In this document: piece by piece, positions 6,234 through 25,614 of the stretch
Layout: each line of letters begins with the position of its first letter
How positions within the stretch are numbered: the stretch's first letter is position 1
NCBI GenBank assembly: GCA_017610305.1
Contig: JAFCCJ010000003.1
Coordinates: 1 to 44,471, forward strand
Direction: 5' to 3'
DNA length: 44,471 nt
DNA from: Candidatus Iainarchaeum sp.
Lineage (GTDB): Archaea > Iainarchaeota > Iainarchaeia > Iainarchaeales > JAFCCJ01
Notes under the pieces: generated by a model
Databases searched by the model: none
What the model saw: only the letters and a program-made list of their open reading frames with translations
Told to the model about the DNA's origin: nothing
Translations under genes and position numbers: made by a program

Positions 6234-6247
6234 ATTAGGTGAAGAAT

Positions 6248-7399
6248 ATGCTGGGAATAGCTTTTTCAAATATAACAAAAAGCAAGACACGCACACTTCT
6301 CTCACTCATTGGAATCATTATCGGAGTGGCGGCAATCATTATAATGGTTGCAACAGTGCAAGGCCAGCTTGAAGAGGTTCAGGAGGCAATCTCCAATGTG
6401 CAGGGCATTAGAATTGCGCCGGCAAATCTCCTTCAAGCTTTTGTGCCAAGCATGGATATTGAATGGGTCGATAAGCTTGAATCAATAAGGGGCGTTAAGG
6501 TGGCGGTTCCTATTATTTCTGGAATGTTGACCTCAGTAGACGGCAAAGACCTAATGTTAATGCCGCTCAAGTTTATTGCTCCAGACCCTTACAGGCTTTC
6601 AAAGGCAGGTGATGTAGGAATCGGCGGAGAGGTTCCAAGAAATCAGGGAAGGATGCTGGAAGCAGGGGATACAGGCGTGGCAGTAATAGGTTCTGTCATA
6701 GCTGATGATTATGGTAAATCTGTTGGAAGCACGATAAAGCTCCAGGAAACAAAATTCCGGGTTATAGGCATATTTTCTTCAGGCTCTGCCCTTTTGGACA
6801 CCCTTATTCTGATAAGTTTGGAAGACGGCAGGGAACTTTTGAAGGGGGATAATGACAAGGTAAGTGCCTTTGTGGTTGCTGCAAATAATCCTGAGGAAGA
6901 GTCAAAAGTAGCAAGGCTAATAGAGTTCAGGTATGGGGAGGAGGTTACTGCAATTCAGACCAACAGCCTTGCAGACCAGTTTGGCGAATTTATTCTTATT
7001 TTTGAGGCATTGGTTGGGGCAATAGCCGCAATAGCGGCAGTTGTTGCAGGAGTCGGCATAATAAACACAATGCTGATGAGTGTTGTTGAAAGATTTAAGG
7101 AGATTGGTGCCCTGAAGGCAACAGGCTGGAGCAACGATAATATTTTGAAAATGGTTCTCTATGAATCAATTTTGATTTCCATTTTAGGGGGGCTAATCGG
7201 AGCCATAATTGGCGTTTCAATTTCAATTTTGATTGATGTTGGTTTTGGGCTTAGAGTTTCTTTCACCTTGGTTGGGGTGCCTTATTTATTGGTTGTAATT
7301 GCATTTCTTTTTGCGGTTTTCATTGGCCTTATTGCAGGCTTATATCCGGCATGGATTGCATCGAAAATGGACCCAATTGACGCATTGAGGGCAGAATAA
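6248..7399 (+). CDS. ABC transporter permease, MacB/FtsX type (second copy)
   Basis: The 383-residue permease has the same layout as the first copy: an N-terminal helix (about 14-34), a large external domain, three C-terminal helices and an ending AGLYPAWIASKMDPIDALRAE. I chose ATG at 6248 with AGGTG 6 nt before it over GTG at 6239. The external domains of the two permeases have diverged, but one 52-bp block (7017-7068) is identical, which points to gene conversion or very strong constraint. No separate membrane-fusion protein is present; the CARDB protein may take that place. The gene ends where relA, on the other strand, ends, with no gap. Confidence 0.9.
   Translation: MLGIAFSNITKSKTRTLLSLIGIIIGVAAIIIMVATVQGQLEEVQEAISNVQGIRIAPANLLQAFVPSMDIEWVDKLESIRGVKVAVPIISGMLTSVDGKDLMLMPLKFIAPDPYRLSKAGDVGIGGEVPRNQGRMLEAGDTGVAVIGSVIADDYGKSVGSTIKLQETKFRVIGIFSSGSALLDTLILISLEDGRELLKGDNDKVSAFVVAANNPEEESKVARLIEFRYGEEVTAIQTNSLADQFGEFILIFEALVGAIAAIAAVVAGVGIINTMLMSVVERFKEIGALKATGWSNDNILKMVLYESILISILGGLIGAIIGVSISILIDVGFGLRVSFTLVGVPYLLVVIAFLFAVFIGLIAGLYPAWIASKMDPIDALRAE
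7017..7068 (+). repeat. 52-bp exact repeat, copy 2 (inside permease 2)
   Basis: Identical to 5172-5223. It encodes the AIAAIAAVVAGVGIINT helix segment. Confidence 0.9.
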
Positions 7400-9295
7400 T
7401 TACCTTGACACTTCCAGAACGCCCTTAACAGAATTTAGTTCAGAAATCACTTTATCCAAATGTTTAAGGCCGCTGATTTTCAGCCCAAACCTGCAATTAA
7501 TATATCCCGTTTTCACAGACTTTGCATTTGCAGAAGTTACATTTATTTTGTTCCTGGAAAATACGGACAAAAGATCGCTGAGCATTCCAATCCTGTCCTC
7601 CCCCCGCACTTTCAACTCAACAGCATAATCTCCCCTGGTCCCAAGGCCCCAATCCACCTTAACCCCCTTCCTTATATTCTCCTTACCAAGCTCCTCGCAG
7701 TCCGTTCTGTGCACAGAAATCTTTCTTTTGGTGGTTATAAATCCGGTTATTTCATCTCCGGGAACAGGGCTGCAGCATTTTGCAAGTTTTATCTTACGGT
7801 CATGCTTTTTAATTGTAATTGCCTTAACCGGCTTATCCTTAATCCTGGGTTTCTTCACACTCAAGTGCAGCCTTTGCCTTATCTTATTTTTTGCCTTTGA
7901 GGTATTTACAAATCCTAACCAGCTTGTCTTTGGCTGCTGTTTAGCGGAAGTTATTATTTCCACAAGGTCGCCATTGTCAAGCTCATGGTTTAATGCAACC
8001 GCCTTTCCATTAACCTTTGCCTGTTGGCAGCGGTCACCAACCTCAGAATGCACGGCATATGCAAAATCCAATGCAGTCGCGCCTGTCGGAAGCTCAACAA
8101 CCTCCCCTTTTGGGGTTAGCGTAAATATATCGCTCTCAAAAAAGTCCACCTTAAGGGAACCGACCTCCCCGCCCTTTGACTCCTTTCTCCATTCCAGAAG
8201 CTCCCTCAACCAGGTCAGTTTCCGGTCATATTTATCCTCTTTTGCCCTTCCCTTGTAGAGCCAGTGCCCGGCAGCCCCGAATTCAGATATCTGATGCATC
8301 TCTTTAGTTCTTATCTGAATCTCAATTGGCTTTCTCCCAGGGCCTATGACTGCAGTATGCAGCGACTGGTAAAGATTTGACTTAGGTTTTGCTATATAAT
8401 CATCAAATTCCCCCGGCAATGGTTTCCAGAGAGAATGAATTATGCCCAAAATCTCATAGCACCCCTCAACCGAGTCGGTTATCACCCTTATTGCACTAAG
8501 GTCATAGATTTCCTCGAATGAACTGTTCTTCCTTTGCATCTTGTTGTAAATGCCGTAGACGTGTTTTGCCCTACCCTCAATTATTACACTTATTTTCCTT
8601 TCCTTTAATTTTTTTTCTAAGATAGATTTTGCCTTAGCAATCTCCCTTAATCTTTCCCGTTCCCCCCCCTTTATTTTTTTCTGGAGGCTATTGAAAACAT
8701 CCGGGTTAGAATTCTTGAGCCACAAATCTTCAAGTTCTGACTTAATTTGCTGGACCCCAAGCTTATGGGCAAGTGGCGCATATATTTGGTCTGTTTCCTC
8801 AAGAAGTATTTTTTGTGATTCTTTAGGGATGACCTCGAAACACCTCATATTGTGCACCATATCTGCCAACTGAATAAGCACCAGCCTAAGGTCCTTGGTC
8901 ATCGCAAGAATTATTTTTTTTGTCTGTTCCGTTCCCTGTTCCATGTTTCCCGAGAGGTAACTAAACATAAACTTGTCAAGCTCGGTAACGATGTTTGCCA
9001 CCTCACCACCCACCGCTTCGGAGATTTCCTTTTTACTTGTGCCATGGCTAATGACATTATGAATCAGTGCGGCGGCAACAGTTATTGAATCAGCATTTAC
9101 CGAAATCAAAATTTTTGCAACTTCTAAATTGTGCCACATCAATGGCCTGCCCCCGAGGTCCAATGCCCCGCTAAGCTTTTTGATTCCAAAATCATAGGCC
9201 CGTTCCAACAGAACCATATCTAATTCAGGACTGGATTTAGCCAGCTCCCTGAGATCCCCCTTCTTATCCAATTCTCTAATCTCTGCAGACGCCAT
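7400..9295 (-). CDS. relA: RelA-type long RelA/SpoT homologue, (p)ppGpp synthetase with degenerate hydrolase domain
   Basis: The 631-residue protein has the full bacterial layout: HD hydrolase domain (about 25-190), synthetase (about 230-350), TGS (388-450), zinc-finger-like CC domain (C507, C508, H529, C533) and ACT (556-631). The synthetase keeps D265, YQSLHT and E325 in EIQIRT, so pyrophosphate transfer from ATP to GDP/GTP is likely. It carries EFDD (296-299), the EXDD signature of monofunctional RelA, where bifunctional Rel has RXKD. In the HD domain H55, H79 and D145 remain, but the HD pair is H79-N80 and the ED pair is S83-H84, so hydrolysis is probably lost. Long RelA is rare in archaea, so transfer from bacteria is likely. 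The start is ATG with no clear Shine-Dalgarno and may be leaderless. Confidence 0.93.
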   Translation of the reverse strand: MASAEIRELDKKGDLRELAKSSPELDMVLLERAYDFGIKKLSGALDLGGRPLMWHNLEVAKILISVNADSITVAAALIHNVISHGTSKKEISEAVGGEVANIVTELDKFMFSYLSGNMEQGTEQTKKIILAMTKDLRLVLIQLADMVHNMRCFEVIPKESQKILLEETDQIYAPLAHKLGVQQIKSELEDLWLKNSNPDVFNSLQKKIKGGERERLREIAKAKSILEKKLKERKISVIIEGRAKHVYGIYNKMQRKNSSFEEIYDLSAIRVITDSVEGCYEILGIIHSLWKPLPGEFDDYIAKPKSNLYQSLHTAVIGPGRKPIEIQIRTKEMHQISEFGAAGHWLYKGRAKEDKYDRKLTWLRELLEWRKESKGGEVGSLKVDFFESDIFTLTPKGEVVELPTGATALDFAYAVHSEVGDRCQQAKVNGKAVALNHELDNGDLVEIITSAKQQPKTSWLGFVNTSKAKNKIRQRLHLSVKKPRIKDKPVKAITIKKHDRKIKLAKCCSPVPGDEITGFITTKRKISVHRTDCEELGKENIRKGVKVDWGLGTRGDYAVELKVRGEDRIGMLSDLLSVFSRNKINVTSANAKSVKTGYINCRFGLKISGLKHLDKVISELNSVKGVLEVSR

Positions 9296-10148: not shown

Positions 10149-10820
10149 ATGAAATTACCTGTCCTTTTTTTAAACTTCAAAACATATGAGCAGGGAACGG
10201 GCAAAAAGGCGCGGGAACTTGCAAAAATTGCCGAGGCAATCGCAATGGAAACAGGCAAATCAATAGCCCTGGTTGTGCAGGCAGCAGACATCCGGATGCT
10301 TGCTGAAGCGGTTGACCTTCCGATTTTTGCCCAGCACATAGATCCAGTATCCTATGGCTCGAATACCGGGAAAATTCTCCCTGAAACAGTTAAGGAAGCA
10401 GGTGCAATAGGGACAGTTATAAACCACGCTGAGAACAAGAGAGACAATAAATTTGTTGAGGATGCTGTGAAAAGGGCAAAAGAAACCGGCCTAACTGTTA
10501 TGGTTTGTGCCGAAACAACTGAAAGGGCAAAAGAAGTTGCCGCCTTCTCCCCGCAATTTATCGCTGTTGAACCCCCTGAACTTATTGGCGGGGTTATTTC
10601 AGTTTCAACCGCTAAGCCTGAAATAATTTCTGATTCAGTTGAGGCGGTAAAAGAAATCAATTCAGAAATAGACTTGATAACCGGTGCAGGGGTAAACTCA
10701 ACAGCAGATGTCGAAAAGAGCACCGAGCTCGGCGCCAAAGGCGTATTTGTGGCATCAAAAATCCTGAAAGCCGATGACCCGAAAAAAGCCATTGAAGAAT
10801 TAGTCGCAGGATTCAAGTGA
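10149..10820 (+). CDS. tpiA: Triosephosphate isomerase, archaeal type
   Basis: It interconverts dihydroxyacetone phosphate and glyceraldehyde 3-phosphate. At 223 residues it has the short archaeal length. Catalytic residues are visible: N9 and K11 (LNFKTYE), H93 (INHAE) and E141 (AVEPPELIG). The phosphate-gripping GAGVNS and GVFVAS segments follow near the C-terminus. A GTGAT element lies just before ATG. The stop TGA forms part of the AGTGAT Shine-Dalgarno of the next gene, so expression with the DsbA-like gene is probably linked. Confidence 0.96.
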   Translation: MKLPVLFLNFKTYEQGTGKKARELAKIAEAIAMETGKSIALVVQAADIRMLAEAVDLPIFAQHIDPVSYGSNTGKILPETVKEAGAIGTVINHAENKRDNKFVEDAVKRAKETGLTVMVCAETTERAKEVAAFSPQFIAVEPPELIGGVISVSTAKPEIISDSVEAVKEINSEIDLITGAGVNSTADVEKSTELGAKGVFVASKILKADDPKKAIEELVAGFK

Positions 10821-24529: not shown

Positions 24530-25603
24530 TCAGTTTGCCTTGACTTTAATAAAAACATCAGGCCCGATTGTTTTAAATTCTGCGTTTTCGAACTCAACCC
24601 ATTTTTTCAGTTTAATGCCGCTGAAAACATCCAAACCCCTGCCTATAATTTTAGGTGAAATGAAGAAATAGAATTCATCAACAACCCCTGCTTTAATTGC
24701 AGAGGCATTAAGTGCTGCTCCGCCCTCAATCAAAACACTTTGAATGCCCATTTTAACCAATTCCTTCATCAGTCCATTAAAATCAACAACCCCTTCACGT
24801 TCCTTTACAATAACCGGCAATGCCCCCATCTCCATAAGCTTCTGCATCCTTGCCTTTGGCGCCCTTTTGGTTGTTGCAACAACCGTAAGCCCCTTTTGCT
24901 TCAGTATCTTTGATTTAAGCGGAATCCTGCCGTTGGTATCAAGAACAACCCTCACCGGATTTCTCCCGCCCTTAATCCTGCATGTAATTTTCGGGTCATC
25001 CCTCACCACAGTGTTTATCCCGATCATTACTGCATCAAACCTGTTACGCATTTTTTGAACCAGGTTTCTGCTTTCTGCAGAGGAAATCCATTTGCTTTTC
25101 CCGCGTTCATTGGCAATCTTCCCGTCAAGGCTTATTGCCGCCTTTAGTGCCACAAAGGCGGTGCCGCTTTTTATGCGCTTGAAATAGAATTTGTTAAGTT
25201 CAATGGCTTCCTCAAGTTCAATTAATTTTGTTTTGATTTTCGCCTTTTTTAATATTTTTTCCGAATTGGCGCATGCAACAGGGTTAGGATCTTTTGATGC
25301 GAAAACAACCGTCTTAATCCCTGCCTGAATTATTGCCTCGGTGCAGGGCGGGTTCTTTCCATAATGGCAGCATGGCTCTAAAGAAATGTACAGTGTTCCT
25401 CCCCTTGCCCTTCTCCCTGTCTTTTCAAGTGCAACAACTTCCGCATGCCTTCCCCCGAACTTTTTATGGTGGCCCCTGCCGACAACTATTCCTTTCTTTA
25501 CAACAACAGCCCCAACTAATGGATTTGGCGAGACCTTCCCAATACCTTTTCTTGCGAGTTTTACTGCTTCAAGCAGGAATTTTTTATCATCACTCACACC
25601 CAT
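24530..25603 (-). CDS. ribD: Bifunctional pyrimidine deaminase/reductase RibD
   Basis: It carries out two steps of riboflavin synthesis: deamination and reduction of the ribosylamino-pyrimidine. The 357-residue protein fuses an N-terminal cytidine-deaminase-like domain (NPLVGAVVV, zinc ligand H53 with catalytic E55, zinc Cys C78 and C87 in the PCCHYGKNPPC segment) to a C-terminal RibD/DHFR-like reductase (ALKAAISLDGKIA, GINTVVRDDP, LIEGGAALNAS). This fused form is typical of bacteria; most archaea make the reductase as a separate protein. I chose ATG at 25603, 5 nt after GTTGAT. No other riboflavin gene is in the window. The prepilin peptidase lies 11 nt upstream. Confidence 0.93.
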   Translation of the reverse strand: MGVSDDKKFLLEAVKLARKGIGKVSPNPLVGAVVVKKGIVVGRGHHKKFGGRHAEVVALEKTGRRARGGTLYISLEPCCHYGKNPPCTEAIIQAGIKTVVFASKDPNPVACANSEKILKKAKIKTKLIELEEAIELNKFYFKRIKSGTAFVALKAAISLDGKIANERGKSKWISSAESRNLVQKMRNRFDAVMIGINTVVRDDPKITCRIKGGRNPVRVVLDTNGRIPLKSKILKQKGLTVVATTKRAPKARMQKLMEMGALPVIVKEREGVVDFNGLMKELVKMGIQSVLIEGGAALNASAIKAGVVDEFYFFISPKIIGRGLDVFSGIKLKKWVEFENAEFKTIGPDVFIKVKAN

Positions 25604-25614
25604 AAAAATCAACT

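Follow-up and report, generated by a model that had tools for sequence, protein, structure and literature searches.

A predicted split stringent-response system of two reciprocally reduced long RSH proteins in an archaeal order

The terms [hS] and [Hs], for long RSH proteins in which only the synthetase or only the hydrolase site is intact, and the precedent for such proteins in Moraxellaceae are found in Atkinson et al. 2011 (PMC3153485) and in the paper on the structure of A. baumannii SpoT (PMC9974481). Hydrolysis by A. baumannii SpoT is abolished when Y51, E82, D83 or N147 is substituted (PMC9974481). In E. coli RelA, H432 of the TGS domain stacks between C74 and C75 of the uncharged tRNA, and P411 and K412 contact A76; two further domains, ACT and the zinc-finger-like RIS, bind the ribosome at bridge B1a (PMC4974054). 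In archaea, (p)ppGpp has been sought and not found in those tested (Haloferax, Sulfolobus; PMC8646023), which have no RSH genes. RelA/SpoT genes of bacterial origin have been reported in DPANN by Li et al. 2021 (PMC8407392), who name Diapherotrites (69.0%), Woesearchaeota, Pacearchaeota and Nanoarchaeota.

The window considered here is the whole stretch of 44,471 nucleotides of contig JAFCCJ010000003.1 from Candidatus Iainarchaeum sp. On its minus strand it carries an ORF (7400..9295) for a full-length RelA/SpoT homolog of 631 aa. This protein, of the type called S below, is a long RSH predicted to be a synthetase-only stringent factor ([hS]). We propose, with a probability of roughly 0.8, that the gene supplies half of a stringent-response system whose two activities are divided between separate proteins. 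The ancestor of the archaeal order would have acquired a bacterial bifunctional Rel, the acquired rel gene would have been duplicated, and the two copies would have lost opposite activities, leaving S as the maker of the alarmone and a second protein, H, as its remover.

The window protein and its active sites

The window protein has the HD, synthetase (SYNTH) and TGS domains of the long RSH superfamily in that order, and scores 585.6 bits with NCBIfam TIGR00691, above the cut-off of 499.2. A first-pass annotation of the window had listed all five RSH domains, and all were recovered, four by Pfam and the zinc finger by its residues. They are, all on the minus strand, a degenerate pseudo-hydrolase HD_4 domain (PF13328, residues 34-181, 8753..9196), the RelA_SpoT synthetase domain with every checked catalytic position retained (PF04607, residues 241-350, 8246..8575), the TGS domain (residues 392-449, 7949..8122), the zinc finger or RIS core with C507, C508, H529 and C533 (residues 507-533, 7697..7777), and the ACT (RRM) domain (PF13291, residues 555-631, 7403..7633). 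The predicted model (mean pLDDT 82.6) has its best structure matches with 5iqr (RelA), 6yxa (Rel) and 7qpr (SpoT), and its predicted fold is that of the solved Rel, RelA and SpoT.

RSH genes of the order were identified by phmmer and aligned with 81 bacterial sequences, giving 59 S and 34 H proteins for comparison. The individual residues picked out in the annotation (H55, H79-N80, S83-H84, D145, D265, EFDD at 296-299 and E325) are all in place. In the hydrolase domain, HNVISH (residues 79-84, 9044..9061, minus strand) stands where active hydrolases read HDxxED: S83-H84 replace ED, N80 replaces D, and L52 replaces Y. Aligned with A. baumannii SpoT, the window protein has L52, S83, H84 and N149 at the positions of Y51, E82, D83 and N147. 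All four of these essential residues are retained together in 0/59 S and in 31/34 H. Each S protein keeps between 0 and 4 of six hydrolase positions, and since the ED pair is missing from all 59 S proteins of the order, the window protein counted, its loss is not attributable to sequencing error or chance. In the synthetase domain, all 7 checked residues are intact in 59/59 S; among them the catalytic Glu E325 (8321..8323, minus strand), equivalent to E323 of Rel_Seq, is present in 59/59 S and 0/34 H. At the level of motifs, the predicted state of the window protein is therefore the one that had been proposed for it, with synthesis on and hydrolysis off.

The EFDD motif (residues 296-299, 8399..8410, minus strand) had been read as confirmation of a monofunctional enzyme, and this reading did not survive comparison. 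The EXDD form varies within the order, with the first Glu in 23/58 S and the third-position Asp in 39/59, and two bacterial Rel proteins of Thermomicrobiales, Chloroflexia (L136, L176) carry EFDD together with an intact HD/ED hydrolase motif. Because the motif is variable in the order and occurs beside intact hydrolase motifs in bacteria, EFDD alone does not mark a monofunctional enzyme, and as proof of a synthetase-only protein it is ruled out. Long RSHs with a degenerate hydrolase pocket were also seen outside beta/gamma-proteobacteria, in Dehalococcoidia (L165) and Geobacteraceae (L162).

The partner protein, the sensor domains and gene neighbourhoods

One further RSH gene was recovered when the window's own genome (1.24 Mb in 89 contigs, 89% complete) was searched; it lies on contig C26 (9951-11405; L002:1492-2946) and encodes an H protein of 484 aa. 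Its hydrolase domain is intact (VHP, LLHDVLEDT, LADKLDNM). Its synthetase domain is dead: PLKFYIST is found instead of PIEIQIRT, so that the catalytic Glu equivalent to E325 is gone, and the IRV-motif Arg (R270-equivalent) and the YQ of the G-loop are also missing. This H, which has no zinc finger, is the mirror image of the window S. Profile searches of the 89% complete assembly matched PF04607 twice and PF13328 twice, and gave no further RSH synthetase or HD_4 domain. Within that completeness, the genome holds one predicted alarmone maker and one predicted remover. The annotation had argued that a synthetase alone would need another enzyme to remove the alarmone, and H on C26 is the candidate for that enzyme.

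The two types also differ in the parts that read the ribosome and tRNA. In the window protein, P395, K396 and H416 have spacing identical to that of P411, K412 and H432 of E. coli RelA, and these residues, like C507, C508, H529 and C533, are among those expected of a ribosome-activated stringent factor. In S as a whole, the TGS Pro is kept in 59/59, the Lys in 52/59 and the His in 59/59, and the C-C-H-C of the zinc finger is present in 58/58, the remaining S sequence ending early. Of the contacts that E. coli RelA makes through ACT, S has only some (D675 is D or E in 54 S, R739 is lost), and many bacteria are alike in this. In H, the TGS His is found in 3/33 and the Pro in 6, and the zinc finger is missing in 34/34. 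Retention of TGS, CC and ACT, which the annotation had raised as a condition, is thus supported for S by residue conservation: the predicted maker has retained the putative ribosome- and tRNA-reading parts, and the predicted remover has shed them. Under the proposed mechanism, the TGS, zinc finger and ACT of S would recognise uncharged tRNA when it is bound to stalled archaeal ribosomes, and S would synthesise (p)ppGpp, which H would then remove, its ribosome-reading parts no longer present.

In 25/34 loci, H comes immediately after argS, the gene for arginyl-tRNA synthetase, and in the same orientation, with gaps of -32 to +118 bp or overlapping. The linkage is found in every H-bearing family but f8, and on C26 of the window's genome (L002/L103) the two genes are 20 bp apart. 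If H is co-expressed with an aminoacyl-tRNA synthetase, this would fit a translation-linked alarm. On the far side of H from argS, leuS or alaS is often found.

S has different neighbours. Upstream of the window gene is a divergent triosephosphate isomerase (TPI) gene (10149..10820, plus strand), which is found upstream of S, on the opposite strand, in 38/61 S loci. The convergent neighbour on the other side is a MacB-type permease gene (6239..7399, plus strand), which occurs at 11/61 S loci and is context only. A KaiC-like ATPase gene (PF06745), absent beside the window gene, is directly downstream of S on the same strand in 40/61 loci (e.g. L073:3503-4636, L016, L018), and its product is a possible partner of S.

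The best PDB match of the window protein and many of its genome matches are bacterial, as would be seen if the contig or the gene were bacterial contamination. The window, however, contains genes for RadA, replication factor A, SRP54 and FtsY, which bear out the archaeal host, about 60 genomes of the order carry orthologs of S and have neighbouring genes in common (TPI in 38/61), and the proteins form a clade separate from bacteria (see below). Contamination is contradicted by these observations and can be set aside for practical purposes. Elsewhere in the window, a riboflavin-biosynthesis ribD gene (24530-25612, minus strand) scores best with a bacterial-type fused model, and may be a second bacterial import.

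Distribution and reciprocal conservation in the order

RSH genes were found in 64/87 genomes of the window's phylum. Set against the 69.0% reported for Diapherotrites (PMC8407392), this frequency suggests that the phylum is Diapherotrites/Iainarchaeota, and so probably one of the DPANN groups named in that paper. All 64 genomes belong to the order of the window, which was represented by 75 genomes with the window's own counted. No RSH gene was found in 12 genomes from other orders of the class, nor in 57 genomes elsewhere in archaea, where the matches were only to the TGS domain of other proteins. Two further archaeal phyla, in neither of which a positive control lies, gave no RSH match.

The hydrolase and synthetase sites of the two types are conserved in opposite ways across the order. 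H proteins have all six hydrolase residues in 34/34 and, as in SpoT[Hs], lack the synthetase Glu (0/34, with Lys in 32); the Arg is also found in 0/34. The bacterial comparison proteins have both active sites intact, with few exceptions. Pairwise identity in the hydrolase versus the synthetase domain is 26 versus 44% in S, 48 versus 38% in H and 55 versus 54% in bacteria. Opposite conservation together with the reversed identities argues that random decay is not the cause; by this footprint, each copy is held to one job. It could still be supposed that a transferred rel gene is simply decaying and that neither S nor H functions any longer, as each copy has one degenerate domain and the S gene of one genome, G020, is in frame-shifted pieces. 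Against this, the other domain of each type is strictly conserved over more than a dozen archaeal families, the genes are intact, and their places in the genome are conserved, making relics a very improbable explanation.

Several divergent or shorter RSH-related proteins were seen in the order. Family f4 alone has a diverged RSH of 463 aa with a degenerate hydrolase motif (L065 and L066, in G038 and G003), in which neither ACT nor the C-terminal zinc finger was matched. Short stand-alone RelA_SpoT-like proteins of 206 and 322 aa (L068 1797-2414 in G016, and L071 1731-2696 in G004) are possible small alarmone synthetases. A genome without an RSH synthetase match has an HD_4 protein of about 200 aa (L205, G029:C8:55793-56017), which is a possible small alarmone hydrolase.

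H co-occurs with S in 33 genomes, and in G041, where H is partial. The sole other case is G020 (L069, G020:C102), the genome with the frame-shifted S gene, which may be a pseudogene or reflect assembly errors. S also occurs without H, in family f10 (9/9 genomes), in family f14 (4/4) and in others. This one-way dependence of H on S is the behaviour expected of a remover. In two near-complete S-only genomes, G012 (97% complete, 2 contigs; L021) and G013 (99%, 1 contig; L003), S is present and there is no other HD_4 protein. A hidden small HD_4 hydrolase was rejected for those S-only genomes that were checked, as the PF13328 search returned only S itself. The S-only lineages count against the proposed pairing; in them, S may be weak, or another hydrolase may act.

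That several S-only genomes have no recognised hydrolase would also be consistent with S catalysing some other pyrophosphate transfer, such as synthesis of a pppApp-type alarmone or the modification of the tRNA CCA end that toxSAS carry out. The variability in S of the EXDD/RXKD position, reported to set GDP/GTP preference (PMC3153485), points the same way. On the other side, the synthetase residues common to bacterial Rel are kept in 59/59 S, the long regulatory C-terminus is retained, and H, with its complete (p)ppGpp-hydrolase pocket, is confined to genomes that have S, whether intact or broken. We regard a different transfer reaction as improbable, and retain (p)ppGpp as the predicted product of S.

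Descent and relation to known systems

A maximum-likelihood tree of the region from HD to TGS was built for 27 S and 23 H proteins together with 40 from bacteria, the bacterial comparison set having been chosen by likeness to S. Each group falls on one side of a branch with strong support (S 99/96, H 100/100, sampled bacteria 100/98). Three separate groups are the pattern expected if one bacterial Rel entered, was duplicated and split its jobs. If the root is assumed to lie among bacteria, S and H are sisters, and a single transfer followed by duplication would be indicated. In the 32 genomes that have both proteins, S and H distances are correlated (Mantel r 0.81, 0/5000 permutations; r 0.38 for distant pairs), which is the expectation under shared inheritance.

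The single-domain trees are less clear, as S and bacteria are not separated, and with HD or SYNTH by itself the bacteria do not come out together. This leaves some room for two separate bacterial transfers, for example of one RelA-like and one SpoT-like gene, a history that would not alter the division of labour between S and H. The AU test also leaves a clade of S plus E. coli RelA standing (p 0.12 and 0.39), although the best trees place the archaeal proteins apart. In the tree of the N-terminal region, however, all 40 bacteria are on one side in 100% of bootstrap trees. H scores 315 bits with B. subtilis Rel and only 130 with the hydrolase-only A. baumannii SpoT, and S scores equally well with Rel and RelA. 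The relatives of H that are carried on plasmids, at 34-38%, are Rel/SpoT of the ordinary kind. Two transfers are thus a possible but less favoured history, and derivation of H from a Moraxellaceae-like SpoT is unlikely given the difference in scores. Phage origin was also considered and set aside: the matching "phage" records are short and unannotated, with 38-41% identity, and several resemble host DNA.

The description of the window protein as RelA-type can be kept as a statement of likeness. As a statement of kinship it is not upheld by the best trees, and the AU values above stop short of rejecting it. With the NCBIfam RelA equivalog PRK10872 (GTP diphosphokinase) the protein scores 419 bits, below the cut-off of 728. 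In the best trees, the dead hydrolase and EFDD are likely to have arisen independently of RelA.

In its fullest form, the single-transfer reading is of a native archaeal stringent response, in which S senses uncharged tRNA and makes (p)ppGpp and H, co-expressed with arginyl-tRNA synthetase, clears it, the duplication and reciprocal loss having taken place inside archaea as an independent repeat of the Moraxellaceae split. We give this fuller version an even chance. We know of no archaeal alarmone receptor. As a make-and-break pair is under clear opposite selection in an archaeal order, the pathway is very probably used, and a starvation alarm so far regarded as bacterial may operate in archaea too. 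Three questions become testable with this pair: whether a RelA-type sensor can be activated by archaeal ribosomes, on what (p)ppGpp acts in cells whose RNA polymerase is archaeal, and whether independent duplications of an ancestral two-way enzyme lead to the same kind of split.

Among known systems, the bifunctional Rel[HS] of most bacteria has the same domain order and gives the closest sequence matches, but has both active sites intact, whereas each archaeal copy has lost one. E. coli RelA, representing beta/gamma-proteobacteria, resembles the window S in that its hydrolase is dead and its synthetase intact, and in having EFDD, the P/K/H of TGS and the residues of the zinc finger. It differs in that EXDD is not order-wide in S, and in that the partner of S is hydrolase-only while that of RelA is the bifunctional SpoT. 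MESH1 and other small alarmone hydrolases share the HD fold and hydrolase pocket of H; H, unlike these enzymes, retains a pseudo-synthetase and a TGS domain. The main text of Li et al. 2021 (PMC8407392) lumps synthesis and hydrolysis together and does not describe two oppositely reduced paralogs, and no description of the split pair was found in the open-access literature. Moraxellaceae RelA[hS] and SpoT[Hs] (PMC9974481) are likewise two long RSH paralogs with opposite pseudo-domains, and are alike in overall fold to the predicted models. The archaeal pair differs from them in its host, in an H that is without a zinc finger and usually without the TGS His, in the argS linkage, and in that the sequence of H resembles Rel more closely than it does A. 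baumannii SpoT. What appears to be new is the combination of two paralogs with opposite losses, a sensor kept only in the predicted maker, fixation across an archaeal order and a predicted remover tied to argS.
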